Assembly (NCBI RefSeq): GCF_003002875.1
Contig: NZ_PVTH01000011.1
Coordinates: 1-64,000 of the forward strand
Origin: Arcticibacter pallidicorallinus
GTDB taxonomy: Bacteria; Bacteroidota; Bacteroidia; Sphingobacteriales; Sphingobacteriaceae
Length of the DNA stretch: 64,000 nucleotides
Direction: 5' to 3'
Shown here: positions 6,621 to 48,245 of the stretch, piece by piece
Layout of the letters: each line of letters starts with the position of its first letter
How positions within the stretch are numbered: position 1 is the first letter of the stretch
Program-made: the position numbers and the translations under genes
Notes under the pieces: generated by a model
The model's database searches: none
What the model was told of the DNA's origin: nothing
What the model saw: only the letters and a program-made list of their open reading frames with translations

Positions 6621-6702
6621 AAAGCGGCTGCGTTCTCCTATCACTTTTAGACTGTAGCTTTTGATGCCATTTCTTCGTAGTACATAATACAACAAGCTAC
6701 AT

Positions 6703-9203: not shown

Positions 9204-9222
9204 CATTTCAATTTCATTTTCC

Positions 9223-9230
9223 TACCTTTG
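9223..9230 (+). promoter_or_regulatory. Putative -7 promoter element of engB
   Basis: TACCTTTG matches the Bacteroidota TAnnTTTG element. Only 5 nt separate it from the engB ATG, so the transcript would be nearly or fully leaderless. No TTG is seen at the expected upstream distance. Confidence 0.45.
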
Positions 9231-9235
9231 CCAGA

Positions 9236-9859: not shown

Positions 9860-9879
9860 CACTGACCTGTGTTTGTTAA

Positions 9880-10737: not shown

Positions 10738-10799
10738 ACCCTATAAACATCTTACTTTATTTTCCGTTAACTTCGTGTTTTTAAGCAAACCGACGAAAC

Positions 10800-12509
10800 A
10801 TGATAATCGAGAAAAAAAGAAGGGCCTATGTCCCCGAAAATCTTGAAATAAACTGGGAAAACCTCGAGCCTCTTTTTATAGAACTGAAAGACCGGGAGAT
10901 TAACTCGGTGACTGAACTGGAAGCCTGGATGAGAGACCGCAGTGAGCTGGAAGCCGTTGTGGAAGAAGATTTTGCGTGGCGTTATATCCGGATGACCTGC
11001 GATACGCTGAATGAAAACTTGCTGCAGGATTTTCAATATTTTGCTACAGAGGTCGAGCCGCGTATCGCGCCGATATCGAACGAGCTAAACAAGAAGCTTG
11101 TCGAAAGTACTTTCGTGAATGAGCTGGACGAAGATAAGTATATGATCTTCCTTCGGGGCGTGAGGAACTCACTTGAGCTCTTCAGAGAAGAGAACATCCC
11201 ACTTTTCACTCAAATACAGGTAACCGCACAGAAATACCAATCGATAACCGGTGCAATGAGCGTGACGCTCGATGGCAAGGAATATACGCTGGAACAGGCT
11301 TCGGTATTTTTGAAAGATCCTGAGCGTGAGGTTCGCCAGAAGGCATGGGAAGCGATTACAGAAAGAAGGTTGCTAGACCGGGATCAACTAGATAAACTTT
11401 TCAATGAGCTGTTAAAACTTCGTCATCAGGTTGCGCTGAACGCTGGCTTTGAAAACTTCAGAGATTATATGTTCCGCTCGCTTGGCCGCTTTGACTATAC
11501 TCCGCATGAGTGCTATAAATTCCATGAAGCTATTGAAAAGGAAATCGTTCCGATACTGCGGGAGCAATCGGATGCGAGATTGACTGCACTGAACCTGGAT
11601 ACGCTAAAGCCCTGGGATATGGACGTGGATATTTCGGGCAAGCCTGCATTAAAGCCTTTCGGGAGCGGCGCGGAACTGATCGACAAATCTATTGAGTGCT
11701 TCCATTCTATCGACACCTACATTGGTGAACGACTGGCCATTATGAAGGCTAACCAGCTTTTTGACGTGGAAAGCCGTAAGGGCAAAGCTCCCGGTGGTTA
11801 CAACTACCCGCTTGCGGAAACCGGCGCCCCTTTTATCTTTATGAATTCGGCCAATACCTTCCGTGATCTGACGACGATGATCCATGAAGGCGGACATGCG
11901 GTACATACGTTTATCTCATCAGACCTGGAGCTGAATGATTTCAAACATTTGCCTTCTGAAGTAGCAGAGCTGGCTTCTATGAGTATGGAGCTAATCTCTA
12001 TGGATAAATGGGATATTTTCTTTAAGGATGCAGATGACCTGAAGAGGGCTAAAAGAGACCAGTTAAAAGACGTGTTGAAAACCCTACCCTGGGTGGCTGT
12101 GGTTGATCAGTTTCAGCACTGGATCTATACCAATCCGGATCATACCAGCGAACAGCGGCGTGAAGCCTGGAAGCAAATCTTTACACCATTCGGTTTAAAC
12201 TTTGCGAACTGGGAAGGTTACGAGGAGGCATTGGAGAATCTTTGGCAGAAACAGCTACATATTTTTGAAGTTCCGTTCTACTACATCGAGTACGGTTTTG
12301 CGCAACTGGGAGCTATTGCCGTCTGGAAAAATTACAAGGAAGATCCGGAGAAGGGTCTGAAGTTATATAAAGAGGCACTTAAGCTGGGATACACGCGGAC
12401 GATCAAGGAGATCTATCAGACTGCGGGGATTGAGTTTAATTTTAGCGCGGATTACGTTCACGAGCTCGCTGCATTCCTTAAAGCGGAACTGGAGCTTTTA
12501 CAGGATTAG
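10800..12509 (+). CDS. pepF: M3-family oligoendopeptidase (PepF-like)
   Basis: A 569-aa cytosolic zinc metallopeptidase without a signal peptide. The catalytic HEXXH motif is HEGGH at 362-366 (His362, Glu363, His366), and the downstream Glu ligand lies in the LPSEVAELASMSMEL segment about 27 residues later, as in M3 enzymes. The family degrades short peptides released by other proteases. The C-terminal FEVPFYYIEYGFAQLGAIAVW stretch (about 488-508) is typical for M3B oligoendopeptidases. It is monocistronic, closed by a hairpin shared with the convergent usp gene. Confidence 0.93.
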   Translation: MIIEKKRRAYVPENLEINWENLEPLFIELKDREINSVTELEAWMRDRSELEAVVEEDFAWRYIRMTCDTLNENLLQDFQYFATEVEPRIAPISNELNKKLVESTFVNELDEDKYMIFLRGVRNSLELFREENIPLFTQIQVTAQKYQSITGAMSVTLDGKEYTLEQASVFLKDPEREVRQKAWEAITERRLLDRDQLDKLFNELLKLRHQVALNAGFENFRDYMFRSLGRFDYTPHECYKFHEAIEKEIVPILREQSDARLTALNLDTLKPWDMDVDISGKPALKPFGSGAELIDKSIECFHSIDTYIGERLAIMKANQLFDVESRKGKAPGGYNYPLAETGAPFIFMNSANTFRDLTTMIHEGGHAVHTFISSDLELNDFKHLPSEVAELASMSMELISMDKWDIFFKDADDLKRAKRDQLKDVLKTLPWVAVVDQFQHWIYTNPDHTSEQRREAWKQIFTPFGLNFANWEGYEEALENLWQKQLHIFEVPFYYIEYGFAQLGAIAVWKNYKEDPEKGLKLYKEALKLGYTRTIKEIYQTAGIEFNFSADYVHELAAFLKAELELLQD

Positions 12510-33780: not shown

Positions 33781-35208
33781 TTACAATCCGGTATAGGCTG
33801 AATTCTGGGTAATCTTTGGATTCTGTTGTATCACGTTTTGAGGTATAGGCAATATCAACTGCCCTTCGTTCTGTATTGGCTTTGTCTTTTTCACCACGTC
33901 TAAAGCCCTATTTGTTCTTTTAAGATCAAATAGCCTATGAAATTCAAGCGCCAATTCAACCCTTCTCTCATGTTCGAGAGCGAGCGCTAAAGTTGGATAC
34001 TTCGCCGTTGGATAACCTGCAGAGCCAAATGCCGGCAGCCCTACCCTGCTACGCACCTCATTTAAATACTTGGGATCATTCGTTGCCTCTGATAACATGA
34101 GCAGAACATCTGCATATCGTAGCACCACAAAGTTGTTATTGCTGAGTTCTCTGCCGCTAGGGGCAGGTGCCGTTTTATCTACCCATTTATTCTGAAACTT
34201 GATCGGAATGAATGTTCCGTTCTTGTTTGTGTATCCAGTTGAGATCGACACATCTCTTCGAATATCGCCCTCCTCATACTCATTATACAGGTCATCTGTA
34301 ACTTGATTCATTCCACCGCCAAATAACGTCAGCACGAAGTTTTCCGTTGGAGCAAACTCTGTCCAATAGTTACTGTAAGGGTTTCCTGCACCTCCTTTAA
34401 ACTGAATTTCGAATATTGATTCGCTGGTGTTCTTTATCGTCGCCCCCCAAAGCTGAGCGTATTGAGGCACCAACGTGTATTTTCCGTAAACTTCAGTCAA
34501 CACCTGGGTTGCTTCTGTCTTTCTGTCCAACGTCAGATATACCTTACCGAGCAGTGCCTGTGCGGCGTACTTAGTTGCCTTTCCCGGAGTTGATGCAACA
34601 GCAGCCGGCAAGGGCAGATACTGAGAAGCGTAATTTAGGTCTGCAATTATCTGAGCGTAAACATCCGCTACCGGCGAACGAACGACATCATAGCTTTCAG
34701 TAGCCGACAGCGCCTTCGTCACCAATGGAATATCTCCCCACATCTGAACCATATTGAAATAATACAATCCTCTCAAGAACATCATTTGCGCTTTTACCGA
34801 CTCTTTATACGCATTGTCAAGAGATGCGCCCTCTATTTTATCCAGAACGATATTAACATTATACAAGGCTCTGTAGCTTTCCTGCCAAAACCGGTAAACT
34901 TCAGTATTGGATGGCGCAAGACTAAAGTTCTTAAATGCGACTCGGTCTGCCTGGATTCCAGCCACGTTATAAAGCGTAGCATTGTCAGACATTTGCTCAG
35001 CAAAGTAAGATACACCGCTGGCAGGAGCATAAAAAGTATACAGCGTTGCATAGGCCGCATTTACCGCAAGTTCGAAGTCTTGGGTAGTCTTATAGAAATT
35101 GGCTGCATTAGAATTTGATATAGGTGCCATATCTAATGATTTCTGGCAGCTTGACGTGATAGTTCCTAAGAACATCAATACAAGTAATTTGCTTATGTTG
35201 AGTTTCAT
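33781..35208 (-). CDS. SusD/RagB-family lipoprotein of the sugar locus
   Basis: A 475-aa SusD-like protein with lipoprotein signal peptide (lipobox SSC, Cys21, followed by QKS) and the family segments: AEQMSDNATL, QMMFLRGLYYFNMVQMWGDI (TPR-like helices) and the C-terminal RYADVLLMLSEA and LEHERRVELALEFHRLFDLK. It is the surface substrate-binding partner of the SusC gene immediately upstream (18 nt apart). It is the last gene of the minus-strand sugar locus and ends before a terminator. Confidence 0.94.
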   Translation of the reverse strand: MKLNISKLLVLMFLGTITSSCQKSLDMAPISNSNAANFYKTTQDFELAVNAAYATLYTFYAPASGVSYFAEQMSDNATLYNVAGIQADRVAFKNFSLAPSNTEVYRFWQESYRALYNVNIVLDKIEGASLDNAYKESVKAQMMFLRGLYYFNMVQMWGDIPLVTKALSATESYDVVRSPVADVYAQIIADLNYASQYLPLPAAVASTPGKATKYAAQALLGKVYLTLDRKTEATQVLTEVYGKYTLVPQYAQLWGATIKNTSESIFEIQFKGGAGNPYSNYWTEFAPTENFVLTLFGGGMNQVTDDLYNEYEEGDIRRDVSISTGYTNKNGTFIPIKFQNKWVDKTAPAPSGRELSNNNFVVLRYADVLLMLSEATNDPKYLNEVRSRVGLPAFGSAGYPTAKYPTLALALEHERRVELALEFHRLFDLKRTNRALDVVKKTKPIQNEGQLILPIPQNVIQQNPKITQNSAYTGL

Positions 35209-35226
35209 TTTCTTCTGTGTTATAAT

Positions 35227-38200
35227 TTAAAAATCAAACTTAGCTCCGAAGGTTATGATTCGGGGGTTGGGATAAGAACCGTAATCTACACCTAGAAACG
35301 CACCTGAAGGTACACTCACGGAAGAGCTGGCCGAAGGCACCGCATTGGAGTAGATATTGGAATAGGATGTTGAGCTATACGTTGTATTTTCCGGATCATA
35401 ATTTAAATAATTACTCCATAAGTAAACATTCTCAGCATTCATGAAAACACGTATTCCTTTTACGGGCGACTTAACGAACAGCTTCGAAGGCAAAGCATAA
35501 GAAATGCGGATGTTTCTTAACCTCACAAAAGTGGCATCTTCCACCCAGTAGGATGAAAACTTTTCCTGGTACCCCTTCGGTGCGATTGTTGGCTTGAAAT
35601 GTCTTCCATCGCCTGGGTCAGCTTCAGATTTCCAGTAATTAGCGACCTCTGCATAAGCATTTCTGCCACCATTCCAAATACCATTATAACGAATTAGCTG
35701 ATTGGTAATTTCACCTCCAAATGAACCCTGAAGCATGAATGACATCTCAATACCTTTGTATGAAAAAGAGTTCGTTAGTCCGGCTATGAAATCCGGTTGA
35801 ATATTCCCGATGGTAGTTCTGTCGGCCTCGGTGATTTTTCCGTCTCCGTCTACGTCTCTTACCCGCGGATCACCAGGAGTAGTAATTCCATCCCCTCTTG
35901 CAGGCCCTGCATCGATCTCTGCCTGATTCATATAAACACCGTCGAAGATGTATCCGTAGAAATTAGAAATAGGTTGACCGACTTCAGTTTTGACTTGAAC
36001 TACAAAATCAGTGTAAATTAAAGGTGCATTTCCGGGTCCCAATTGCAACACCTTGTTTCTGTTGAGAGAAACGTTAAAGTCAGTTGTCCAGTTGAATTTT
36101 CCGACTATATTCTTTGTGCTCAAGCTTCCTTCAAAACCTTTGTTTCTAAGTTTCCCGATATTTGTGAGCTGTGTCGAAAAGCCTGTAATATCCGGAACGG
36201 GAACATTAAGCAGTAAATCGTTGGTAGTGGAGTTGTAATATTCGGCACTTACATTGACACGATTTTTAAACAGGCCGAGTTCAAAACCTGTATTAAACAT
36301 ATTGGTTTTCTCCCATTTCAAATCCGCATTCTCAATGTTAGTCACGTTTAGTCCATTCGCCAGGTTATTACCGTAGACATAGTTCGAAGATCCCAGAAGT
36401 CCAATCGAACCATAATTAGGAATTTGATTATTACCCGAGACACCGTAGCTGGCTTTAAGCTTAAGACTGCTCACCGCTGCAACGTTACTCATAAATCCTT
36501 CATCAGATACAAGCCAACCGGCAGAGATTGAGGGGAAATAACCGAACTGATTATTCTTACCGAATCTTGAACTGCCATCTCGCCGAATTACTCCCGAAAG
36601 GAAGTATTTGTCCTTGAAATTATAGTTCAACCTTCCCAGATACGACAAGAGTCCCCACTCATAAGCTAATGTAGTACCTGAGTTTACGGTTCCGGCATTT
36701 AATGTGGGTACCAAATCATTTGGAAAATTACCGGCACCTAGCGCCATATACTCATCTCTCTGCTGCTGGTAGGTAAAACCCAGTAAGGCACTCAAATTAT
36801 GATCCCCAAACTTCTTGTCATAATTCAGCGTATTTTCCGTCAACCAGTTGAACATGAATCTCGAGTTCGCACTACCTTGTGCAGGCAAGGCGGAAGAATA
36901 TCCGAATTTCTGATCTTTATTCCAGAAAAAGTTGAAGCGTGTGTTCAGTAAATTGGCATTTATGCTGGTTCTAAACTTCAAACCGTCCGTGATTTTGTAG
37001 TCGGCAAAAGCAGTTCCCAGCGTTGTAAACGACTTGTTCTGCTTGTCCGCCTCCCTAGTCAGCGAGTATGGATGCCATAATTGTAGATCCGTGTACTGGG
37101 CAAACCTGTACCATTCGGAATTGGGATCTTTGAAACCGAGGTTACCGTTTTCATTATAAATCGGAAAGATAGGGTCGCTCTGTAATCCCAGACTCACTGC
37201 ATCACTTTTTCCTTCTATACCGTCGGTCCGGTCATATAAAGCTGTCAATCCAAGGTTAAGACCTACAGAGATCTTCTCGGAAATCTTTTGTTTAATATTT
37301 GATCGAACAGTAAGTCGTTTGTAGTAGTTATTGTCCATAACCGCTTCCTGATCGAGGTAAGCACCCGAAAATAAGAACTGCGTCTTCTCCGAGCCTCCCG
37401 AAACCGATACCTGCGCATTATGAGAACCTGCCTTTCTAAACATAACGTCCTGCCAGTCTGTACCTTTCCCCAGGCGAGCCCTTAAAGCTGGATCTGTAAA
37501 ATCAACCGGAATCCTGTAAATGGTTGGTCTTACTTCATTGGGACTGCTAATATCTCCTCCCGCTGCCAGATAAGCGTTATTATGAGCATCTATATAATAT
37601 TGGACGAACTGCTGAGCATCCATCATGTCAACCTTTCGGGTTAACTCCTGTGTCCCGTATTCATAGTTGGCATTAACCTGTGTTTCTCCCACTTTGCCGA
37701 GTTTAGTCGTTACGAGTACGACACCATTAGATCCGCGGGATCCATAAATAGCCGCAGACGAAGCATCTTTCAAGACTTCGACGGACTGGATATCCTGCGG
37801 ATTTATGTTATTAAGATTAAAGTTTTCAATCGGCAAGCCGTCTACAACATACAAGGGGCTCGTTCCCGCCGTAATAGAACTGGTACCCCTGATACGTATA
37901 TTCGGACTTTGCCCGGGTGCTCCCTGAGACTGCGTAATATTGACACCCGGCAACTGGCCTGCGAGCGCTTGCGTAACGTTGGTTACCGAGCGGTCCTTGA
38001 AGTTATCGTAGTTCACCGATGCAACCGAACCTGTTACCGCTCTTCTGCTCTGTGTACCATAACCAACTACGACTACCTCGTTCAAACTCTTCGACTCTGG
38101 TACAAGTCGAATTTCTAAAGCAGAACGATTGCCTGCGTTGATCTCCTGCGGTTTATATCCGATATAAGATATCAGGAGAATGACGTTTTCCTCCTGTTGA

Positions 38201-38388
38201 ACATTCAGAACAAAGCGACCCTGAGCATCGGAACTCACTCCTCTGTTAGATCCCTTTACTTTCAGACTCACGCCAATCAGAGATTCTCCATCCTCGGCAC
38301 TTAATACCCTTCCTGTGATCTGCCGAGTCTGAGCCTGCACAGTAATCGTAAGGAGAATTACATAGAACAGTAATGCAATTTGTTTCAT
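35227..38388 (-). CDS. SusC-type TonB-dependent transporter of the sugar locus
   Basis: A 1053-aa transporter with signal peptide (1-19, ending VQAQ), carboxypeptidase-regulatory-like domain (about 23-95), TonB-box-like ESKSLNEVVVVGYGTQSRR (about 99-117), plug with YVVDGLPIENFNLNNINPQD and a beta-barrel to the C-terminal Phe. It should pass substrate into the periplasm for the lipoprotein sugar-binding protein at 43251. The 249-bp gap to the kinase gene holds inverted repeats that may regulate this part separately. No glycoside hydrolase accompanies it, so the substrate is probably a free sugar or small glycoside. Confidence 0.95.
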   Translation of the reverse strand: MKQIALLFYVILLTITVQAQTRQITGRVLSAEDGESLIGVSLKVKGSNRGVSSDAQGRFVLNVQQEENVILLISYIGYKPQEINAGNRSALEIRLVPESKSLNEVVVVGYGTQSRRAVTGSVASVNYDNFKDRSVTNVTQALAGQLPGVNITQSQGAPGQSPNIRIRGTSSITAGTSPLYVVDGLPIENFNLNNINPQDIQSVEVLKDASSAAIYGSRGSNGVVLVTTKLGKVGETQVNANYEYGTQELTRKVDMMDAQQFVQYYIDAHNNAYLAAGGDISSPNEVRPTIYRIPVDFTDPALRARLGKGTDWQDVMFRKAGSHNAQVSVSGGSEKTQFLFSGAYLDQEAVMDNNYYKRLTVRSNIKQKISEKISVGLNLGLTALYDRTDGIEGKSDAVSLGLQSDPIFPIYNENGNLGFKDPNSEWYRFAQYTDLQLWHPYSLTREADKQNKSFTTLGTAFADYKITDGLKFRTSINANLLNTRFNFFWNKDQKFGYSSALPAQGSANSRFMFNWLTENTLNYDKKFGDHNLSALLGFTYQQQRDEYMALGAGNFPNDLVPTLNAGTVNSGTTLAYEWGLLSYLGRLNYNFKDKYFLSGVIRRDGSSRFGKNNQFGYFPSISAGWLVSDEGFMSNVAAVSSLKLKASYGVSGNNQIPNYGSIGLLGSSNYVYGNNLANGLNVTNIENADLKWEKTNMFNTGFELGLFKNRVNVSAEYYNSTTNDLLLNVPVPDITGFSTQLTNIGKLRNKGFEGSLSTKNIVGKFNWTTDFNVSLNRNKVLQLGPGNAPLIYTDFVVQVKTEVGQPISNFYGYIFDGVYMNQAEIDAGPARGDGITTPGDPRVRDVDGDGKITEADRTTIGNIQPDFIAGLTNSFSYKGIEMSFMLQGSFGGEITNQLIRYNGIWNGGRNAYAEVANYWKSEADPGDGRHFKPTIAPKGYQEKFSSYWVEDATFVRLRNIRISYALPSKLFVKSPVKGIRVFMNAENVYLWSNYLNYDPENTTYSSTSYSNIYSNAVPSASSSVSVPSGAFLGVDYGSYPNPRIITFGAKFDF

Positions 38389-38404
38389 ATTGATGTTGGT
38401 TAGC

Positions 38405-38418
38405 GCATGTAGACATGC
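38405..38418. promoter_or_regulatory. Short perfect palindrome in the SusC leader
   Basis: GCATGT-AG-ACATGC lies 17-30 nt upstream of the SusC start codon (minus strand). A 2-nt gap is too short for a good RNA hairpin loop, so a protein operator is more likely than an RNA element; the binding factor is unknown. Confidence 0.35.
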
Positions 38419-38513
38419 AATGGAAAATTGGTTAGCTTCTTTGATAGGTAAACGAAGGTAGAATCAAAGAATAAACTAAAATATAAAAAGTAAATGAAAA
38501 TTAATGACGAAAA

Positions 38514-38554
38514 TGATAAGTATTTTTCACCGGAATCGATAAAAATACTTATCA
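38514..38554. promoter_or_regulatory. 14-bp perfect inverted repeat between kinase and SusC
   Basis: TGATAAGTATTTTT and AAAAATACTTATCA flank a 13-nt centre. In the minus-strand transcript it forms a hairpin followed by TTTTCGTC, so it could be a weak terminator after the kinase gene; equally it could be an operator for SusCD. An ACGAAAA at 38507-38513 beside it resembles the direct repeats upstream of the DeoR gene. Confidence 0.5.
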
Positions 38555-38637
38555 ATGAAAAATAAACATAGAACGGACTTCATGATTGCTATAGCGGTAG
38601 ATACTCACGACCACAGTAAGTTCTGTAGTATAAATTT

Positions 38638-40122
38638 TTAGCAGCCGGCAATAGCCGCCTTCCAGCCAGCATATGCATGAGTCACCGCTGCTAGGTCTTC
38701 TGAGGGGTAGTGGGCTGCCGATTTTGCATTCAGAGATCCTAACTGGTCAAGATCGCGGTATACTCCACACTGCAGTCCGGCAAGATAGGCCGCACCCAGG
38801 GCAGAAACATCCGGCAATCCTCTATTCGCTACTTCTTTATCTAGCAGATCAGCCAGGAACTGAAGAACGAAACCGTTAGCGGTAATTCCTCCATTCACCA
38901 TAAGTTCTTGAAGCTCTATTCCCGTATCTTCTTCCATCGCCGTGATCACATCCTTGATCTGGTATGGAATAGATTCCAATGCAGCTCTGATGATATGACT
39001 TTTAGCCGCACCAAACGTGAGGCCATTTATTGATGCTTTTCGGTTCATCTGCCAGTATGGAGCGCCCAGGCCACTAAACGCCGGAATAACATAAACGCCG
39101 TTTGTATCTGCTACAGAATTTGCGAGACTTTCCGTTTGACGTAGGTCATCGAACAAGCACAGCTCATTCTTAAGCCATTCCAAAGTTGCGCCGCAGGATA
39201 CGATAACCCCCTCAAGTGCATAGTCAACCTGACTAGCAGTACTCCAGCAGATCGTTGTGATCATTCCATTGCCGGAAATCCTGGGCTCTGAACCAATATT
39301 CATCAGTATCGAACATCCGGTGCCAAGTGTAGCTTTTGCGGATCCGGGAAGAAAACAGCCTTCACCAAATGCCGCGGCATGAGAATCCCCGATCATTGAG
39401 CTAATAGGTATCTTTCTTCCAATTAACCCTTCAAAGTCAGTTTCTCCGAATAAGTAAGATGATGGATTCGGTTCCGGAAGATTTAACTTGGAAAGTCCAA
39501 AAGCCTCAAGCAGCTCTTTATCCCATGCCAGAGTGTGCAGATTGAAGAACATCGTCCTTGATGCGTTGGTGTAATCTGTTTGATACTTCAGGCCTTTCGT
39601 CAGACAGAATAACAGCCAGGTATCAACAGTACCAAAGTAAGCTTGTCCTTCGTCCACGGCTCTCCTTACCGTCTGAACATTTTCATACAGCCATATCAGC
39701 TTGGTGCCAGAAAAATAAGGATCAATAATAAGTCCCGTTTTTTTATTGATTGCCTCTCCCAGCCCTTCTTCGCTCAGCCGGGCACAAACCCCTATTGATC
39801 GTTTACACTGCCAAACTACAGCATTGTGTAATGGAGTTCCTGCAGCGTCCCAAATCACAAAGGTCTCCCGCTGATTGGATATACCGCATGCTTCTATGTC
39901 TTCGACACGTCCGCCCCCGGCAACAAAACTATCGACACAGTTCCTTACCGATGTTAGTACGTTCTCATAAATACCTCTCGGATCCTGTTCTACGAAGCCC
40001 TCACCGGAAAATATGCTTTTCAACGACTCAGTAGATTTACATACCGCCTTCCCTTGTTCGTCAAACAGAAGAACCTTAGTACTACTGGTGCCTTGATCAA
40101 TTGAAAGAATATACTTACTCAT
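38638..40122 (-). CDS. FGGY-family carbohydrate kinase, glycerol-kinase-like
   Basis: A 494-aa kinase with the two FGGY domains. Glycerol-kinase-like landmarks: SIDQGTSSTKVLLFDEQG at about 7-24 (phosphate-binding loop), GISNQRETFVIWD, the GTVDTWLLF and TDYTNASRTMFFNLHTL segments, GDSHAAAFGEG with the general base Asp and the C-terminal PAFSGLGAPYW and LMVNGGITANGFV. A glycerol role is possible, but the neighbours (isomerase, dedicated transketolase, sugar importer) suggest a ketose substrate, e.g. apulose in the D-apiose pathway. The start overlaps the permease stop (TAATG). Confidence 0.9.
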   Translation of the reverse strand: MSKYILSIDQGTSSTKVLLFDEQGKAVCKSTESLKSIFSGEGFVEQDPRGIYENVLTSVRNCVDSFVAGGGRVEDIEACGISNQRETFVIWDAAGTPLHNAVVWQCKRSIGVCARLSEEGLGEAINKKTGLIIDPYFSGTKLIWLYENVQTVRRAVDEGQAYFGTVDTWLLFCLTKGLKYQTDYTNASRTMFFNLHTLAWDKELLEAFGLSKLNLPEPNPSSYLFGETDFEGLIGRKIPISSMIGDSHAAAFGEGCFLPGSAKATLGTGCSILMNIGSEPRISGNGMITTICWSTASQVDYALEGVIVSCGATLEWLKNELCLFDDLRQTESLANSVADTNGVYVIPAFSGLGAPYWQMNRKASINGLTFGAAKSHIIRAALESIPYQIKDVITAMEEDTGIELQELMVNGGITANGFVLQFLADLLDKEVANRGLPDVSALGAAYLAGLQCGVYRDLDQLGSLNAKSAAHYPSEDLAAVTHAYAGWKAAIAGC

Positions 40123-41096
40123 TATCTCGATTTAGCGTTTGATTTGTCAATTATAACGGCCAAAAGAATAACCATACCCTTAACCACCTGCTGCCAGAAA
40201 GGAGAAACATTCAGCAAAACAAGACCATTATTCAGCACTCCTATGATAATAGCTCCGAGTACGGTCCCCAATATTGTTCCTTTACCCCCCGAGAGTGATG
40301 CTCCTCCTATAACCACAGCTGCAATGGAGTCTAGCTCATAACTAACACCCGCGTTAGGTTGAGCCGAGTCCAACCGCGAGGTGACCATTAAACCGCCTAT
40401 AGCTGCCAACCCACCTGCAATGGCGTAAACAATAATCTTCACTCTCCCGATATTAATGCCGGACAGCCTCGACGCACTCTCATTCCCGCCAATTGCATAG
40501 ATATACCTCCCAAGTCGCGTCTTATTCGTAATGATAACGGCAGCAACGACAACAAGTGCCGAGATCCAGACTGGCACAGGTACGCCTAAGAGCCAACCGG
40601 TGCCTATATATGCAAAATTCTCGCCCAGACCTGATATAGGGTGGCCTTCCGTGTATAGCAAGGTAAGTCCCCTCGCTATAGTTAGCATCGCCAAAGTAGC
40701 CACAAAAGGCGGCACATTGAACCGTGTAATCACCCAGCCGTTAAAGCCGCCTATGAACGTGCCGCAAAACAGACCTACCAGGATAGCGCCAAGCAGCGTA
40801 AAGCCGATATAAAGATCGACAGGCATTATTCCTATCCCATCACTCAGCAAACCTGCGGTTATGGCCCCGCATAAAGCCAGCACCGATCCTACCGAAAGAT
40901 CTATACCGGCCGTCAGCACAATAAGCGTCATACCTACCGAAATGCAGACATTAACAGAAATCTGCCTCATCACATTCCAGCCGTTCGAAACGGTAAGGAA
41001 TTTGTCAGACAACAAACTGATTAATAAGCAAATCACGAATAGTGCGATCAGCGACTGAAATTTAATAAAATACGTTTTATACAATTTTAAGTTCAT
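40122..41096 (-). CDS. RbsC-like sugar ABC transporter permease
   Basis: A 324-aa inner-membrane permease with about ten helices of the ribose/xylose/galactose (CUT2) type. The motif NVCISVGMTLIVLTAGIDLS and the EAA-like GGNESASRLSGINIGRVK loop that contacts the ATPase are seen. It follows the RbsA-like gene by 8 nt and overlaps the kinase start. ABC sugar importers of this class are uncommon in Bacteroidota, which mostly use proton or sodium symporters after SusCD. Confidence 0.94.
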   Translation of the reverse strand: MNLKLYKTYFIKFQSLIALFVICLLISLLSDKFLTVSNGWNVMRQISVNVCISVGMTLIVLTAGIDLSVGSVLALCGAITAGLLSDGIGIMPVDLYIGFTLLGAILVGLFCGTFIGGFNGWVITRFNVPPFVATLAMLTIARGLTLLYTEGHPISGLGENFAYIGTGWLLGVPVPVWISALVVVAAVIITNKTRLGRYIYAIGGNESASRLSGINIGRVKIIVYAIAGGLAAIGGLMVTSRLDSAQPNAGVSYELDSIAAVVIGGASLSGGKGTILGTVLGAIIIGVLNNGLVLLNVSPFWQQVVKGMVILLAVIIDKSNAKSR

Positions 41097-41104
41097 CGGC
41101 TCAG

Positions 41105-42607
41105 TTAAATTGATTTCGGAATAGCTGCTTTAAGAATATTTTCTTCTGTAGCTTCTTCAATGGCGATTTGGGCGGTCACATTTCCTTCGGAAAGCACCAT
41201 GACACGATCTGAGACAGCCAGTATCTCAGGCAACTCAGAAGATACCATTATTATCCCTAATCCCTGACCAGTAAGATCAAGCATGAGTTTATAGATTTCA
41301 TTCTTCGCATTGATATCAATACCTCGCGTAGGTTCATCCAGAAGCAAAATCTTAGGATGAGTAGCCAGCCATTTGGCAATTACGATCTTCTGCTGATTGC
41401 CCCCGCTTAAAGAACCAGCGGTCTGCTTACTCGAAGAAGACTTGATATTCAGATCACTGCGGTACTTCTCACAAAGTTCAGTCTCCATTCCCATATGTAA
41501 GAGGCCTAATACTTCTCTTTCCTTCAGAGTCGTAATAGCAATGTTTTTCTGAACGTCCAGCCCTAATACCAGGCCGTCTTTTTTGCGATCTTCAGGTACG
41601 AGTGCCAGTCCGGCCTTAATTGCTTCTATGGAAGAACTGTACGTATACTCCTTTCCTCCAATACGAATAGCTCCGCTGGTATACTTGGGGTGCTGCCCAA
41701 ATATAGCCTCCAGCAACTCTGTTCTTCCGGCTCCCATAAGGCCGAAGACGCCTAATATCTCGCCCTTATTCAGACAAAATGATATATCATTTAATAGATA
41801 TTCCCCGCTGCGCTCCGGATTTTTGAGGTATAATTTCTCAACTTCAAGAAGCTCACAATTCTGTGCCTTACTACTTCGGTTGCGAACTAGCCGAACTTCT
41901 CTTCCGACCATTTTCCGGATGATGTCGTTGGTTTGTACATCTTTCATCCTCCCGGATTCAATCAACTTCCCATCCCGCAGAACGACATACCTGTCAGCGA
42001 TTTTAAAGAGCTCATCAAGCTTATGAGAGATATAAACCACCGCCTTATTTTCCTTCCGGAGATCGTTGATAATTTCAAAAAGCACCTTGACCTCATTGTC
42101 GCTAATCGCTGATGTAGGTTCATCCATGATGATCACTTCGGATTCTGTCAATAGAGCCTTAGCGATCTCAACAACCTGCTGCTGTCCAACTTTCAGATCG
42201 ACTACCAGGGTATCAGGATCGAGGTTCAATTTTAGCCTTTTCAGCAGCTCCAGCGTTTTCAGGCGCATAGCTTTCTTGTCCAAACCACCCCAGGCGGTAA
42301 GTTCCCGACCTAAAAAAATATTTTCTGTAATACTTAGATATGGAATCAGGTTCAGCTCCTGGTGGATAATAGCAATTCCGCATTCCTGAGCATGCTTCGG
42401 ACTGCTGAAAGTTACCAATTTGCCCCTTAGCAGGACGCGTCCCTCATAGTCGGCATAGACCCCCGAGAGGATCTTCATCAACGTAGATTTTCCAGCACCG
42501 TTCTCGCCTACAATTGCCGTCACCTCGCCGGCATGAATCTCAAGATTGATATTATCAAGCGCAGCGACGCCAGAGAAGTGTTTACTTATATTTTCGACTA
42601 CTAGCAT
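41105..42607 (-). CDS. RbsA-like sugar ABC transporter ATPase (two ATPase domains)
   Basis: About 500 aa with two nucleotide-binding domains, as in CUT2 importers. Domain 1 has GENGAGKSTLMKIL, DLKVGQQQVVEIAKAL as signature and VIIMDEPTSAISD. Domain 2 has a degenerate P-loop, FGLMGAGRTELLEAIFG, with LSGGNQQKIVIAKWL and LLLDEPTRGID, normal for RbsA-type proteins. I take ATG 42607, which is preceded by AGGA at suitable distance; a TTG at 42628 inside the preceding gene is the alternative. Specificity lies in the binding protein. Confidence 0.94.
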   Translation of the reverse strand: MLVVENISKHFSGVAALDNINLEIHAGEVTAIVGENGAGKSTLMKILSGVYADYEGRVLLRGKLVTFSSPKHAQECGIAIIHQELNLIPYLSITENIFLGRELTAWGGLDKKAMRLKTLELLKRLKLNLDPDTLVVDLKVGQQQVVEIAKALLTESEVIIMDEPTSAISDNEVKVLFEIINDLRKENKAVVYISHKLDELFKIADRYVVLRDGKLIESGRMKDVQTNDIIRKMVGREVRLVRNRSSKAQNCELLEVEKLYLKNPERSGEYLLNDISFCLNKGEILGVFGLMGAGRTELLEAIFGQHPKYTSGAIRIGGKEYTYSSSIEAIKAGLALVPEDRKKDGLVLGLDVQKNIAITTLKEREVLGLLHMGMETELCEKYRSDLNIKSSSSKQTAGSLSGGNQQKIVIAKWLATHPKILLLDEPTRGIDINAKNEIYKLMLDLTGQGLGIIMVSSELPEILAVSDRVMVLSEGNVTAQIAIEEATEENILKAAIPKSI

Positions 42608-42617
42608 AAGATCCTGA

Positions 42618-43247
42618 TTATTTGACAATTTCCAGCTGAACTGGCGTTACCTCAAGGTCATCGAGCTTCAGAAATCTCCTGTTCAGCTCCACTGCTCCTA
42701 TAAAACGAACCACATCCCCCTCCTTTACTTCTTTCCTGAAAGGCGGCAGGATCTCTTTACGGATGATCTTATTTAAGCCTGCAGATACTTCGTTAAACTC
42801 AGAGGTATTTTTGAAGGCATTCATATTAAGTAGTCCGGAAGCATCTCTGACAGAGTTGCCATACACCAGCTCCGTCTCAATACGCAGCTTAAAATTGCCA
42901 TCTCTTCCCAGGATAAGCAGCTCGACCTGATTATCAGCAATCATAGTAGTCTGTCCTTCCCCCTTCACCATAAAATACTGTAGATCGCCAATACCCAATG
43001 CATGTGCATAGGCGGCGAAGGTCTCCTCGGGATCTGCTTTGACACGAGTTACAAGATCCTTAATATCTATAGCTTTATCCATGGAAAGGGGCAATTTATT
43101 CTCCCAAAAATCTCTGGTATAGGCTTCCATATCTGTATTATCCCCCGACTCTGCTCTTCTTACATCACTCAGCTTCTCAAAGTACACCGAATGATAGCTG
43201 ATAAATAAAAGAGCCGCAGCCGCTATAATATATTTCAATATTTTCAT
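42618..43247 (-). CDS. DUF2291-type exported protein
   Basis: The 209-aa protein has an N-terminal hydrophobic segment (about 5-20) without lipobox, so it is a membrane-anchored or secreted periplasmic protein. It resembles the DUF2291 family, usually found beside RbsABC-type sugar importers in Proteobacteria, with unknown function. Sequence features: AYAHALGIGDLQYFMVKGEG and a C-terminal GDVVRFIGAVELNRRFLKLD beta-rich part. It is placed between the binding-protein and ATPase genes with gaps of 3 nt and 10 nt, so it is likely an accessory part of the same importer. Confidence 0.75.
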   Translation of the reverse strand: MKILKYIIAAAALLFISYHSVYFEKLSDVRRAESGDNTDMEAYTRDFWENKLPLSMDKAIDIKDLVTRVKADPEETFAAYAHALGIGDLQYFMVKGEGQTTMIADNQVELLILGRDGNFKLRIETELVYGNSVRDASGLLNMNAFKNTSEFNEVSAGLNKIIRKEILPPFRKEVKEGDVVRFIGAVELNRRFLKLDDLEVTPVQLEIVK

Positions 43248-43250
43248 AGC

Positions 43251-44186
43251 CTACTCGGAAAGGTAATTGTTAATATTAGCTGAAGTAACCAACTCCACTG
43301 CCACAGGAACCTTCTGCGGAAAGTCTCGCTTGCCACTGAAATACTCCTGAGCATAAAGGGCTGCGGTTTCTGCCATGATTTTTGGATACTGCATTCCGGT
43401 AGCTTTTATCTTTCCAGCCTTAACAGATTGGAGTACATCATCTGCACCATCAAAGCCGAACACCTGAACATGATCCGATTTACCCGCAGCCACCAGGGCC
43501 TGGTAGGCGCCCATTGCCATTGCATCATTGCCACAAAACACTCCATCTATGTCCGGATTCGCCTGTAAAACAGACTCCATAACCTCCATAGCCTTATTTC
43601 TGTCGAAATCTGCACTATGCTGGGCAACCATCTTTAACTCCGGAAAATCATCTACCACACTATGAAAGCCCTTTGACCTCGCCCAGGTATTGTTGTCGCC
43701 AACGAGCCCCAATATTTCTACATACTTCCCCTTCTTGTTTAACTGCTTCACAAAATACTTACCCATTGCAATACACCCGGAGTAACTGTCTGACAAGATC
43801 TGCGATGTAGCCACCGTAGTAGAATTCACCTCTCTGTCCATACAAAATACAGGCACATCTGCGGCTTTAGCCTTTGATATATTGGTTATAGAACCATCGG
43901 CGTCAGTTGGATTGAACAGAATAGCATCAAAGCCAGACGTAATGGCATTTTCAAAATGATCTGCTTCGAGCGCTGTATTATTTTGGGAATCAAAAATCTT
44001 CGCCTCATAACCTAAGTCCGCTGCTTTTTTCGCCGCTGTTTCAGCCAGCACCACAAACCATGGGTTATTTAGTGTAGAAACGATTATCGCTATCTTTTTA
44101 GGTTGTTCTGTTGCCCCGCGATTGGTGCAGGCGTTAATGGTCATGCAACAGAGCAGCAGAAAGAAAATGCAAGTTTTCCTCGTCAT
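43251..44186 (-). CDS. RbsB-like periplasmic sugar-binding lipoprotein
   Basis: A 311-aa type I periplasmic binding protein for the CUT2 importer. The mature domain starts KKIAIIVSTLNNPWFVVLAE, with DAILFNPTDADGS, VFCMDREV, VFCGNDAMAMGAYQAL and VQVFGFDGADDVLQSV, all typical of the ribose/galactofuranose-binding group. Unlike most Gram-negative binding proteins it carries a lipoprotein signal (lipobox NAC, Cys20). Conserved Asp and Arg in MDREV and GFDGAD suggest a pentose-size ligand, though the exact sugar is not readable. Confidence 0.93.
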   Translation of the reverse strand: MTRKTCIFFLLLCCMTINACTNRGATEQPKKIAIIVSTLNNPWFVVLAETAAKKAADLGYEAKIFDSQNNTALEADHFENAITSGFDAILFNPTDADGSITNISKAKAADVPVFCMDREVNSTTVATSQILSDSYSGCIAMGKYFVKQLNKKGKYVEILGLVGDNNTWARSKGFHSVVDDFPELKMVAQHSADFDRNKAMEVMESVLQANPDIDGVFCGNDAMAMGAYQALVAAGKSDHVQVFGFDGADDVLQSVKAGKIKATGMQYPKIMAETAALYAQEYFSGKRDFPQKVPVAVELVTSANINNYLSE

Positions 44187-44247
44187 ATTATAATTGGTTA
44201 AATAGGTCAGTTGCTTAAGGCATTTCTCTCGAAATCAACAAATCAGG

Positions 44248-45222
44248 TCATTTCAATAGAGTTAGCGCCACCTGCGTAATGCCCTCGCCGGAGATTCCAT
44301 AGTGATTAAAAATATCGTTTTGCGAACCTGTTACCGTGTATTCATCCGGAATACCTATGATCTTGAATTTGTTGTTGAATCCATTTTCCATTAAAAATGA
44401 AGCGCAGGCTTCTCCCAGTCCACCATAAATACTGTGCTCTTCAACGGTGATAATAGGCACACCTTTTTGAGCCACTTTAGCGAGAAGATCATAATCCAAT
44501 GGCTTAATAGTATGCATGCTAACAACGGATGATTGGAGCTGATACCCTGAGTGCAGCCTTTCAGCCGCCTCCAGCGCGGGATAAACGGCTTCTCCTGTTG
44601 CTATAATTACCAGATCTTCTCCCCTTAGCACCTCTCTCCCCTTTCCAAACTCGAAAGTGCGTTCAGCCGTCGAGGGGAGATGTGGCATATTCTTCTTTCC
44701 AAACCGTAAATAAACCGGCTTATCCAGGGCAGCTGCTTGTTTTATAGCCTGCTCGGTCTCAAAGTTATCGGCAGGCGCCGCTATTATCAAATTATTGACA
44801 GCCCGCAGCGCCGCAAAGTCGTGCAGACTATGATGGGTAGAACCCAGGGCGCCATAACTTACTCCTGCACTGATACCGATCAAATTGACAGGGTTGTCTG
44901 AGTACGCTACATCATTTTTGATCTGCTCGAAGGACCTTGCGGTAAGAAAGCAGGCAGGTGAAACGGCAAATACTTTTTTGCCCGTCGACGCAATCCCTGC
45001 TGCAACGCCAACCAGGTTTTGCTCGGCTATGCCAATCTCGATCAGCTGTTCAGGAAACTTTGCCCCAAAGGGAACCAGTTTACCCGACCCCCTCGAGTCG
45101 CTCGTTACTACAATGATGTGCTTATCATTTTCAGCCAGTGCTTGCAGTGTATTAGAGAAGGTCTCCAAGTTTGCCAGCCCGACAACCTGAGTCTCACTTT
45201 TAATTTCTTCCAATGCTCCCAT
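44248..45222 (-). CDS. Transketolase C-terminal subunit, pathway-specific copy
   Basis: A 324-aa transketolase C-terminal subunit (Pyr and C domains): LIEIGIAEQNLVGVAAGIAS with the catalytic Glu, SPACFLTARSFEQIKNDVAY and AGVSYGALGSTHHSLHDFA. It differs from the housekeeping copy at 22727 (for example GALGSTHH in place of GEDGATHQ), suggesting a different acceptor or donor. It follows the N-terminal subunit with a 1-nt gap. In the described D-apiose route such a pair cleaves apulose-4-phosphate with glyceraldehyde-3-phosphate; that role is inference here. Confidence 0.92.
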   Translation of the reverse strand: MGALEEIKSETQVVGLANLETFSNTLQALAENDKHIIVVTSDSRGSGKLVPFGAKFPEQLIEIGIAEQNLVGVAAGIASTGKKVFAVSPACFLTARSFEQIKNDVAYSDNPVNLIGISAGVSYGALGSTHHSLHDFAALRAVNNLIIAAPADNFETEQAIKQAAALDKPVYLRFGKKNMPHLPSTAERTFEFGKGREVLRGEDLVIIATGEAVYPALEAAERLHSGYQLQSSVVSMHTIKPLDYDLLAKVAQKGVPIITVEEHSIYGGLGEACASFLMENGFNNKFKIIGIPDEYTVTGSQNDIFNHYGISGEGITQVALTLLK

Positions 45223-45223
45223 A

Positions 45224-46048
45224 TTATATTGTTTCCATTACCTCATCCAGCTCAAGCTGTGCTGCGCGGTACTGATCTTCTCCCGGCACTCCATGGTGCC
45301 ACTTGAGCTGACCCTCCATATAACTAATCCCTTTACCTTTCACTGTATGTGCGATGATTAAACTTGGCTTATCCGGTTCAAAAGGCAAACTGTCGAAAGC
45401 CTCCCGTAGCTGACGATGGTCATGACCATCTACCTCGCGCACGGCCCAGCCGAAGCTTTCGAACTTCTTGTCTATCGGATCCGTATTGCAGACATCTATA
45501 GTCCGGCCAGAAATCTGAAGCTTGTTATGGTCTATAATTGCACAAAGATTGTCCAACTTGTAGTGTGATGCCGTCAAGGCGGCCTCCCAGTTAGAACCTT
45601 CCGGAAGTTCACCATCACCTAACAACGTAAAAACGCGATAGGATTTCCGATCCAGGCGTGCAGCTATGGCGTTCCCTACACTGAGGGAAAGTCCATGACC
45701 GAGCGCTCCTGTGTTTTGTTCAACGCCATGAACTTTTCTGGTAGGATGGCCTATATAATGCGACTGATACTTACATAACGTTTCCAGATCTGCTTCAGGA
45801 AAGAAACCTTTGTCCGCCAGAACAACATACAGCGCTTCCACGCAGTGCCCCTTACTCTGAATATATCTGTCACGATCCGGTGAATCAAAATCCTCCGGTG
45901 AAACATTTAAAACGGAGTTATAAAGCACGTTAAGAATATCAATACACGACAAACTCCCTCCTGTATGTCCCGCCTTCGCTCCATAAATATATTTCAGGAT
46001 CTTCTTTCTATATTCAACCGACTTCCTTTTGAGTTCTCGCTCTGTCAT
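45224..46048 (-). CDS. Transketolase N-terminal subunit, pathway-specific copy
   Basis: A 274-aa thiamine-diphosphate-binding subunit: KAGHTGGSLSCIDILNVLYN at the start, GDGELPEGSNWEAALTASHY as ThDP/Mg motif, LDNLCAIIDHNKLQISGRT after it, and the C-terminal KGKGISYMEGQLKWHHGVP loop. It is clearly diverged from the housekeeping subunit at 21860 (TGGSLS for PGGSLG). Its gene lies 19 nt downstream of the isomerase gene and directly before the C-terminal subunit. Confidence 0.92.
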   Translation of the reverse strand: MTERELKRKSVEYRKKILKYIYGAKAGHTGGSLSCIDILNVLYNSVLNVSPEDFDSPDRDRYIQSKGHCVEALYVVLADKGFFPEADLETLCKYQSHYIGHPTRKVHGVEQNTGALGHGLSLSVGNAIAARLDRKSYRVFTLLGDGELPEGSNWEAALTASHYKLDNLCAIIDHNKLQISGRTIDVCNTDPIDKKFESFGWAVREVDGHDHRQLREAFDSLPFEPDKPSLIIAHTVKGKGISYMEGQLKWHHGVPGEDQYRAAQLELDEVMETI

Positions 46049-46067
46049 AATATCGAGTTAAAGTTTC

Positions 46068-47474
46068 CTAATGCTCGTAAATTTCCCAACCGAGGTAATT
46101 CCCGAACGCTTCTTTTAAAATTCCTGCGGTCTTGGAGGCATTCATCACCACATGGTGTTCAAAACCGTTTCTACATACATATTGCATCAGACCCTGCATA
46201 TTGTCGATCTGAGCTACTGCCCTGTTTCCGAAAGTATTCAGTGCATCATCTGTAAGCCGGCCTTCCCCAAAATAAGCCTTAATGACACCTCGGGTGTCAT
46301 CTGTGCTGATCCGTCCGAAAGTAAGGGGCATAGCTGGAGTACGGCCTGAAAGTGCGCCATATGTATTCTCCACTCCTACCGTTGTTCCGAGAATGGGTGC
46401 AGTGCTTATCTCTATATCAGGTAAGAAGGATTTCGCCCAGTTACCACAGTGAAACAGTACACATTTATCTTCATCGGAAGCATAGTTATTGTTCCAGTCG
46501 ACAAGCGCACTCGGTGAGCCCGAAGCCAGCTGCATCGCATACATGGTAAGCGTACCCGTCACATCAACCTCGCATGCACTAGGCAGCATATTTTCGCTCA
46601 TCATGCTCATACTGGTGCAGACATTGCAACCGTAATTTTTTTGCAAGGATGTCCAGCATTGAATAGCGGAAGCATCGAGAGCGTTATCATTCATAAACCT
46701 GTTCAGAACAACATCCAACTTTGCTATCTGAATCAATGCTTCCGAAGGAGCAGATCCCGTCGGCGTATAGCTGGCAATGCGCTCAAGATGATCTTTTACT
46801 ATCTGATCGTCTTTCGTTAGTTTGTTGGCATCTCCCAAAATTTCCGACAGATCCACCGTCACTACGGAAATCCCCTGACGTTGCAAGATTTTCTCGCTAT
46901 ACCTTACCGTATTAAAACCTCCCGGCCTTGCACCTACCGCACCAATTCGGGCATTGCGGAGTCCTTTCACCACCCGGCATACACCTAAGAAATCACTGAG
47001 ATCCTGTGTAAAAGAAGGATCCGAAGGACTTACCACATGTTTGGCTGTAAGCGTATACTTGATTCCAAATTGGTACAGGTTGTTGCATACGGATATCTTT
47101 CCGCACCACGAGTCCCTGCGTCTCGCCAGATCCAGCTTATCTAAATCGTCCGGATAGGCCTGAATGAGTACCGGCACATTAAGTCCCGATAACTTAAGAG
47201 TCTCTGCTACTCCCCGTTCATCTCCAAAATTTGGAAGCACTACCAGCACTCCCATTATTTCCTCTTTATGCTTTTTAAATAGGTCTGCACACTTCCGGGC
47301 ATCGTTAAACGTCTCTACTCCGCCCAGCTTGGTTTCCCAGTCTTCCAATAAGATGGGTTTGATGTTCAATTTCTCCAGTACTTCGAGAATTTCAATGCGT
47401 GCATCGGCAACCAGTCTGTCTGGAAAAAAGTCCCTGTTGCCTATTATTACTCCTAAACTAATTCGTTCTTTCAT
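46068..47474 (-). CDS. L-fucose-isomerase-like sugar isomerase
   Basis: A 468-aa protein of the L-fucose/L-arabinose isomerase-like family (COG2407). Candidate metal ligands are Glu302 (SACEVDVTG) and Asp326 (VDWNNN), with the same 24-residue spacing as in E. coli FucI (337/361), plus His342 (FHCGNW) or His440/His441 (GFEHHVV). The family interconverts aldoses and ketoses with Mn2+; some COG2407 proteins act on branched or unusual sugars. It would make the ketose for the kinase at 38638. No fucose aldolase is present, so fucose itself is unlikely. The start lies 6 nt after the regulator stop. Confidence 0.86.
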   Translation of the reverse strand: MKERISLGVIIGNRDFFPDRLVADARIEILEVLEKLNIKPILLEDWETKLGGVETFNDARKCADLFKKHKEEIMGVLVVLPNFGDERGVAETLKLSGLNVPVLIQAYPDDLDKLDLARRRDSWCGKISVCNNLYQFGIKYTLTAKHVVSPSDPSFTQDLSDFLGVCRVVKGLRNARIGAVGARPGGFNTVRYSEKILQRQGISVVTVDLSEILGDANKLTKDDQIVKDHLERIASYTPTGSAPSEALIQIAKLDVVLNRFMNDNALDASAIQCWTSLQKNYGCNVCTSMSMMSENMLPSACEVDVTGTLTMYAMQLASGSPSALVDWNNNYASDEDKCVLFHCGNWAKSFLPDIEISTAPILGTTVGVENTYGALSGRTPAMPLTFGRISTDDTRGVIKAYFGEGRLTDDALNTFGNRAVAQIDNMQGLMQYVCRNGFEHHVVMNASKTAGILKEAFGNYLGWEIYEH

Positions 47475-47480
47475 TATTGG

Positions 47481-48245
47481 CTAGCTTGCTATAATTAATT
47501 CGATATCGTTATCACTAAATAGATTCTTGTATTTTTCTTCAATTCCACCGTCAGTGATTATGTAGTTGATCAGGGAAAGTGCCCCCAAACTGGCGAAAGA
47601 GCTTTTCCCGATCTTGGTAGAATCTGCTACCAGATAAGTAGTGTCCGCAGCATTGATCATTGCCTTCTTTACAACCAAATCGCTGATACTCGGATAGGTA
47701 AGCCCAGCTTTCAAAGAGAGTCCTGCAGTTGCTAGAAAAAGCTTTTGAACATTCAGCCCCGTAAAAAAGTCCGCCGCCTTCTGTCCTGTCAGCGACAGCG
47801 TAGGTGGCTTAAACTCTCCGCCAGTCATAATGACCTCAATGCCCGGTTCGGCGCCAAGCATTAATGCGATATTGAGAGCATTGGTAATAACCGTTAAGTT
47901 TTTTATACCCTTCAGTTTCTTTGCTATCTCCGTAGTGGTCGATCCGGAGTCCAGAATAATGGTATCACCACTTTCTATATATTCGAGGCACTTATTAGCG
48001 ATAAGCTCTTTCTTGTCCAGATTGTCTTGATTGCTCAGCGAAAAAGTCTTTACCTGATCTTCAACATTCTTTAAAAATGCCCCACCATGCTCTCGCAACA
48101 CCAGGCCATCTTTCTCCAGCTTTTCAAGATCCTGACGAATCGTTACTTCTGTTACCTTAAAAAGCCTGGCAAGATTGATCACCTTTGCGGAGCCATCTTC
48201 CTTCAATAGCTCAAGAATCTTATCCCTTCGTTGGTTAGCGAGCAT
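47481..48245 (-). CDS. DeoR-family transcriptional regulator of the sugar locus
   Basis: About 254 aa: an N-terminal DeoR winged helix-turn-helix (MLANQRRDKILELLKEDGSA, then LARLFKVTEVTIRQDLEKLE) and a C-terminal sensor domain of the ribose-phosphate-isomerase-like fold (DTIILDSGSTTTEIAKKL; the Asp and Ser/Thr bind a phosphosugar). I choose ATG 48245 as it opens the domain exactly; the in-frame ATG 48290 or TTG 48320 give unusual extensions. It is the first gene of the locus, so it probably represses its own operon until a phosphorylated intermediate accumulates. Confidence 0.92.
   Translation of the reverse strand: MLANQRRDKILELLKEDGSAKVINLARLFKVTEVTIRQDLEKLEKDGLVLREHGGAFLKNVEDQVKTFSLSNQDNLDKKELIANKCLEYIESGDTIILDSGSTTTEIAKKLKGIKNLTVITNALNIALMLGAEPGIEVIMTGGEFKPPTLSLTGQKAADFFTGLNVQKLFLATAGLSLKAGLTYPSISDLVVKKAMINAADTTYLVADSTKIGKSSFASLGALSLINYIITDGGIEEKYKNLFSDNDIELIIAS

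Follow-up and report, generated by a model that had tools for sequence, protein, structure and literature searches.

Apiose, a rare sugar with a branched chain, occurs in plant cell walls, and the transketolase pathway for D-apiose (MetaCyc PWY-8089) has established reaction steps. According to the accessible portions of PMC13001218, Escherichia coli STc131 and STc14 and Escherichia fergusonii carrying an aplK-aptA-aptB cluster grow on D-apiose, while K-12 does not; the Escherichia cluster is described there as being without the apsI of Pectobacterium, and Carter et al. are credited with having shown that Bacteroides and Clostridia degrade apiose. Here, we analyzed a window of 64,000 nucleotides (the whole stretch of DNA under study; positions 1 to 64,000 of contig NZ_PVTH01000011.1) from the 4.1-Mb genome of Arcticibacter pallidicorallinus, in which 11 genes run without interruption on the minus strand. 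They encode a DeoR-family regulator, an isomerase, the N- and C-terminal halves of a split transketolase (TK-N and TK-C), a solute-binding protein (SBP), a DUF2291 protein, RbsA, RbsC, an FGGY kinase, SusC, and SusD. This operon very probably encodes the D-apiose transketolase pathway in a Bacteroidota form.

The closest described systems are the enterobacterial apiose clusters. In E. coli SE15, whose cluster was the query in PMC13001218 (portions available), the genes comprise two short-chain dehydrogenases/reductases, RbsC, RbsA, DUF2291, an SBP, an FGGY kinase, a regulator, and a transketolase pair. The window block shares with this type the SBP, DUF2291, RbsA, RbsC, the FGGY kinase, and the split transketolase. 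The isomerase is not in E. coli but is common to the window and to a second form of the cluster: among 15 records of a plasmid collection that matched the window isomerase, 12 did so at 23-28% identity, and three at 53-54% (Klebsiella CP110761, Rahnella CP042359, and Sodalis NZ_CP006570). In these three, the isomerase directly follows the transketolase pair within a set of SBP-DUF2291-RbsA-RbsC, regulator, TK-N, TK-C, isomerase, and FGGY kinase, and their TK-N shares 78-79% identity with E. coli AptA. The window block thus matches the enterobacterial apiose set gene for gene, bar the regulator and SusCD: the enterobacterial clusters are without SusCD, and the E. coli regulator has a PF04198 domain, whereas that of the window is of the DeoR family. 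As judged by sequence, the block holds three features of PWY-8089, namely an isomerase homologous to that of the apiose clusters, an adjoining FGGY kinase of the apulose-kinase type, and a split transketolase of its own.

In the proposed scheme, SusCD would carry apiose or an apiose-bearing fragment through the outer membrane, and the RbsB-type lipoprotein with RbsAC would draw on ATP hydrolysis to import the sugar in free form. The isomerase would then convert D-apiose to D-apulose, the FGGY kinase would phosphorylate this to D-apulose 4-phosphate, from which the dedicated split transketolase would transfer a two-carbon unit to glyceraldehyde 3-phosphate, yielding dihydroxyacetone phosphate and xylulose 5-phosphate. 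The DeoR repressor would control the operon, probably by sensing a phosphorylated intermediate, and the sugar itself would come from rhamnogalacturonan II (RG-II) or apiosides, released by apiosidases encoded elsewhere in the genome. The computed basis consists of gene content, homology, the predicted folds of the isomerase and SBP, active-site changes in the kinase and transketolase, and genomic association; from these, we infer every substrate and reaction, the inducer, and the inclusion of SusCD in the same transcript.

The isomerase, for which a sequence search of the PDB gave no match and whose fold was predicted computationally, has its nearest named relative among the matches listed, from which very near records were possibly left out, in Desertivirga arenae (Sphingobacteriaceae; 87%). 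In the isomerase tree, the operon, enterobacterial, and other types each form one clade; the sister grouping of the operon and enterobacterial types is weak and depends on a very long outgroup branch. Other forms were also seen. Fourteen Bacteroidota isomerases of ~50% identity (L029-L042; 14 of 395 genomes) lie in other gene contexts. In uncultured Alphaproteobacteria (L105-L110), a 70% identical isomerase stands with only distantly related genes of the carbohydrate uptake transporter 2 (CUT2) family and with a divergent kinase that has Asn at the position of Phe270 and Phe at that of Tyr135; these perhaps use a related sugar.

Both transketolase halves are closer to the apiose enzymes than to the housekeeping transketolase of the same genome, with 47% identity of TK-N to E. 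coli AptA versus 38% to its housekeeping counterpart, and 39% of TK-C to AptB versus 32%. TK-C Ser43 and His131 were present in all 80 distinct rows, E. coli AptB and thereby the enterobacterial type included, while the same positions are Leu and Gln in the split transketolase 6yaj and in the housekeeping enzyme; His131 also occurs in DXS and is therefore not private to apiose enzymes. The possibility that the block transketolase is the genome's only one was ruled out by a second, canonical split transketolase in the window (Table 1), in line with the "dedicated" transketolase of an initial annotation made from the sequence. Six places in the genome match Transket_pyr: the block's own, that of the housekeeping enzyme (at 22751), and four that by eye are OGDH, DXS, E1-beta, and a fused E1.

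The FGGY kinase carries the signature R-E-Y-D-S where GlpK has R-E-Y-D-F, the five-residue GlpK signature being taken from an accessible part of PMC3245297. Phe270 of GlpK, which contacts glycerol, is replaced by Ser in 64 of 70 distinct rows and by Asn in the other six; all five enterobacterial rows have Ser. This F270S change is thus common to the window kinase and E. coli AplK, and overall identity to the kinases of enterobacterial apiose clusters is 38-41%. A plain glycerol kinase was rejected on the TIGR01311 equivalog score (550.6, cut-off 590.35) and on the fifth signature residue.

On the import side, the fold of the SBP was predicted computationally, and its best solved relative is the ribose-binding protein of Thermotoga maritima (TmRBP; 2fn8, E 5.7e-104). 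It is 33-43% identical to the SBPs of enterobacterial apiose clusters, and eight of ten pocket residues are the same as in the R. etli/Rahnella/Sodalis type. For RbsA, the top NCBIfam model is a xylose ATP-binding cassette (ABC) ATPase (578.9 bits, under the cut-off of 699).

To place the block among its relatives, 84 loci were compared, consisting of the best 80 of 583 confirmed isomerase relatives, among which close relatives are over-represented, and four loci from further genomes. Genes were counted by tblastn; neighbor clusters rest on open reading frames, which missed genes in GC-rich loci. All four enzymes were present in 65 of the 84 loci and, together with SBP, RbsA, and RbsC, in 47. 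When only the 69 loci with 19.5 kb or more are counted, these numbers become 58 and 44, a recurrence that exceeds chance; loss of the isomerase/transketolase association in homologous clusters, which the initial annotation had named as evidence against its own reading, was not the pattern found. In 49 of the 84 loci, a DeoR relative lay no further than 2.5 kb from the isomerase, and 12 loci (L060, L067, L076, L090, L111, L114-L118, L124, and L125) had the four enzymes without any of SBP, RbsA, and RbsC. Judged by record titles, most carriers belong to the Bacteroidota; the others are Verrucomicrobiota, a Planctomycete, and Alphaproteobacteria.

Of the 84 loci, 16 gave a SusC or SusD match, and in 10 the match was close (from ~49% upward for SusC, or from 55% upward for SusD). 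The pair is an optional addition to the operon. Of the mixed SusCD and ABC architecture proposed earlier, both parts are present in the window, but in this sample only the ABC part is common among relatives (44 of the 69 long loci), close SusCD being the exception. No glycosidase family is represented among the 11 genes, as had been claimed, so that the block, despite its SusCD, falls outside the classical definition of a polysaccharide utilization locus (PUL); the claim does not extend to several relatives, in which glycosidases adjoin the operon.

Many of these neighboring genes point to RG-II, the side chains of which hang on apiose and of which aceric acid is a mark. When neighbors were clustered across the 84 loci, nine loci had a gene of the cluster represented by a tested GH140 apiosidase, and 14 had one of the cluster represented by a tested GH127 enzyme. 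Single tests of 11 GH127 genes gave seven that passed the aceric acid hydrolase equivalog cut-off of 950 and four with scores of 885-899. Further neighbors include BT_1020-like, GH43, GH2, GH28, and rhamnosidase genes. Bacteroidota RG-II PULs are thus related systems that differ from the window block in carrying glycosidases. The likeness is plainest in four Dyadobacter loci (L063, L072, L095, and L096), where SusCD 56-62% like that of the window heads, upstream of the operon, a set of GH140-cluster and BT_1020-like-cluster genes and aceric acid hydrolase. RuBisCO-like (OiaX-like) genes lay in six of the 84 loci and DUF1537-type (OiaK-like) genes in five, and the three and two tested, respectively, matched OiaX and OiaK best. 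The D-apionate/oxo-isoapionate route to which OiaK and OiaX belong starts from the same parent sugar, but it is an oxidative branch with a RuBisCO-like decarboxylase and lies outside the window block.

The same genes were followed across whole genomes, 42 with the operon-type isomerase and 35 without it (20 with no match at E 1e-30 and 15 with a divergent isomerase); 37 genomes of the sample include some that were chosen since their loci carried such genes, and L070 and L080 were left out. An apiosidase (PF13204, at least 350 bits, a line set after the scores were seen) was found in 34 of the 42 operon genomes versus 5 of 35 (Fisher 3e-9), with the E 0.001 limit of the search itself in 40 of 42 versus 8 of 35 (2e-11), and an OiaX-like gene in 29 of 42 versus 1 of 35 (6e-10), all three values being uncorrected for kinship. 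In 22 consecutive genomes unselected for such genes (L046-L058 and L060-L068, L059 being left out as a 3.5-kb contig), apiosidase was present in 20 and OiaX in 15. Taken alone, a subset of 25 genomes, five with the operon type and 20 isomerase-less, gave apiosidase in 4/5 versus 4/20 and OiaX in 3/5 versus 1/20 (p 0.02 each).

The genome of the window fits this association. Its GH140 apiosidase lies in a pectin/RG-II-type PUL (L132; G000:C1:674000-693900) with SusCD, GH43, BT_1020-like, SASA, GH2, rhamnosidase, and DUF6298 genes, the SusCD being only ~28-38% like that of the window. An OiaX/OiaK-like pair is found elsewhere (L144; G000:C5:17000-36900, at 6182-12140), and this locus is likely the D-apionate branch, so that a single cell may operate both apiose branches. 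L144 also holds a racemase-like gene recognized by eye and two transporter genes, one of the SBF type and one for a FucP-type symporter. A Rhodobacteraceae strain with apionate genes grows on D-apiose, according to accessible portions of PMC11747546. With the homology to the enterobacterial clusters and the kinase and transketolase signatures, these RG-II and D-apionate genes near several relatives and in the same genome support the D-apiose reading first put forward in the initial annotation.

The most frequent extra partner of the operon is a secreted nucleoside-hydrolase-like protein of the Sde182 type (PF07632), an assignment that rests on the tested cluster members L113 and L123. Of the 84 loci, 33 contain members of its cluster; in 20 loci a member lies no more than 300 nt from a core gene, and in 13 one sits between TK-C and SBP. 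Examples that adjoin or lie inside the operon are L052:13320-14747 and L051:13380-14786, plus 18 further loci. In 12 consecutive genomes (L046-L057), five have a copy in the 21-kb locus, and whole genomes have 0 to 5 matched pieces. The motif T-D-I-E-N-E-P-D-D stands near the N terminus of 18 of the 49 cluster members, a related form in 25, and none by pattern in six. Their solved homologue is 2yhg, which we take to be Sde_0182. In the available part of PMC8910321, Sde_0182 is inactive on nucleosides and likely a furanose-interacting module. These proteins are candidate apiosidases, a role that we infer. A wider proposal, that they form a new class of apiofuranosidases feeding apiose to an importer whose ribose-type pocket takes apiose, such that the T. 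maritima "ribose operon", with its transketolase and "D-arabinose" enzymes, would serve apiose too, is possible but rather doubtful. T. maritima, used as a control genome, has a match for PF13204 and gave none when searched for PF07632 and OiaX, which weakens part of this proposal; its ribose operon may nevertheless deserve an apiose test itself. If the proposal were true, a nucleoside-hydrolase fold would have been turned to apiofuranosides.

Several observations weigh against the assignment to D-apiose. The SBP pocket equals that of TmRBP in ten of ten residues, and TmRBP has been shown to bind ribose (PMC2630998, in the part available); the SBP may thus prefer ribose, which the initial annotation had listed among its refutations. 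The naming of the enterobacterial isomerase as ApsI is based on gene position. The kinase passes the NCBI GlpK subfamily model NF000756 (560.5 versus 498), and the genome's four other FGGY kinases, compared over their N-terminal part, resemble xylulo-, glucono-, rhamnulo-, and ribulokinase, so that the block kinase could be the sole glycerol kinase of the genome; a kinase acting only on glycerol, which the initial annotation had listed as a refutation, is made less likely by F270S, with the NF000756 score pulling the other way. Seven long loci (Dyadobacter L052, L054, L063, L072, L095, and L096, plus L073) lack only an adjoining kinase, which must be elsewhere or replaced. OiaX (~500) and OiaK (364-405) scored below the NCBI cut-offs of 700, and one genome (G158) has the operon without apiosidase and OiaX.

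The pocket identity also lends itself to a different explanation, a ribose (or D-arabinose) operon in which ribose would be imported and converted to D-ribulose and then, by the FGGY kinase, to D-ribulose 5-phosphate, the second transketolase aiding the pentose phosphate pathway. The frequent PF07632 neighbors of nucleoside-hydrolase type would suit such an operon, and no clear ribokinase was seen among the four tested (as partial sequences) of the genome's eight PfkB proteins. The T. maritima RbsR ribose operon (TM0958, ribose-binding protein) lends support through its gene content and because ribose and xylose induce it (PMC3750489, portions available), yet it differs from the window block in having a ribokinase and a LacI-type RbsR. 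The 11 genes include no ribokinase or other PfkB-type kinase, ribose requires no private transketolase, and the enzyme set is that of apiose clusters; moreover, ribose does not account for the RG-II and D-apionate genes that lie near relatives' operons and recur at genome level. We consider a ribose operon unlikely.

The same enzyme logic could handle a different sugar, branched or rare, from RG-II or from plant glycosides, e.g., hamamelose, and the 14 isomerases in other contexts suggest that the family may have mixed specificity, but the co-occurrence is with the apiosidase and OiaX of apiose catabolism, which leaves such a substrate very improbable. An isomerase with a split transketolase also recalls a sulfoquinovose sulfo-transketolase operon, and sulfoquinovose isomerase (NF048012) is indeed the one NCBIfam model that the window isomerase matches at E 1e-5 or better. 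The score of 89.5 bits is far under the cut-off of 700, for which this pathway was rejected; the kinase and RbsB-type SBP do not fit it on general knowledge, and no sulfoquinovosidase turned up among the neighbors run through family models, in which no search was aimed at this enzyme. The chance of a sulfoquinovose operon is negligible.

The layout of the block is given in Table 1. The earlier count of ten genes falls one short, while all genes that it named are present, on the same strand and uninterrupted. From DeoR to SusD, the intergenic distances are 6, 19, 1, 61, 3, -11, 8, -1, 249, and 18 nt, so that eight of ten junctions are at most 19 nt or overlapping, in agreement with the gaps mostly under 25 nt described before; the exceptions are TK-C–SBP (61 nt) and kinase–SusC (249 nt). 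The first nine genes are one block. SusCD may be transcribed separately from it, possibly as a transcript of its own, since the 249-nt gap contains an AT-rich inverted repeat. Scans for regulatory signals gave no more than expected: 20 sigma-70 sites versus 27.6 in shuffles, 11 terminators versus 12.6 in shuffles, and two matches to a Bacteroidetes-type promoter pattern, one of them upstream of DeoR, versus 2.2 expected. A comparison of the DeoR and SusC leaders gave one 9-mer in common and nothing more.

Table 1. Features of the window block and the second transketolase (positions within the window)
Feature	Position	Strand	Basis or remark
DeoR-family repressor gene	47481..48245	-	AgaR model 208.6 bits, under cut-off 260
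Aldose isomerase, L-arabinose/L-fucose isomerase fold; proposed D-apiose isomerase (ApsI-like)	46068..47474	-	
Transketolase N half; proposed apulose-4-phosphate transketolase (AptA-like)	45224..46048	-	PF00456
Transketolase C half (AptB-like)	44248..45222	-	PF02779 + PF02780
CUT2 solute-binding lipoprotein, RbsB type	43251..44186	-	PF13407; lipobox recognized by eye
DUF2291 protein	42618..43247	-	PF10054, 175.5 bits
CUT2 ATPase, RbsA/XylG type, TTG start	41105..42628	-	ABC_tran in two stretches
CUT2 permease, RbsC type	40122..41096	-	PF02653 154.5 bits; NF007067 356 bits, under cut-off 398
FGGY kinase, proposed apulose kinase	38638..40122	-	PF00370 + PF02782
AT-rich inverted repeat in kinase–SusC gap; possible terminator or operator	38515..38553	-	By eye; absent from terminator-scan list
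SusC/RagA TonB-dependent transporter	35227..38388	-	TIGR04056 897 bits, cut-off 368
SusD-like surface lipoprotein	33781..35208	-	PF07980 + PF14322
Housekeeping split transketolase, second transketolase of the genome	21860-23683	+	ADL and THQ motifs

While the pathway itself is known, the Bacteroidota block with DeoR, a ribose-type SBP, and optional SusCD is, as far as our searches show, a new architectural variant. Full-text literature on apiose catabolism yielded no paper on this block by title, with most subscription papers outside its coverage, and part of the block may already be in Carter 2018. The finding extends a plant-sugar pathway, for which growth evidence comes from Enterobacterales, to an operon that many Bacteroidota and some members of the Verrucomicrobiota, Planctomycetota, and Alphaproteobacteria carry, and annotation could drop the labels fucose isomerase, glycerol kinase, and ribose transporter for these genes. 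It also places a CUT2 ABC importer behind SusCD, names a testable role for PF07632, and ties RG-II breakdown to transketolase and apionate branches within one genome.

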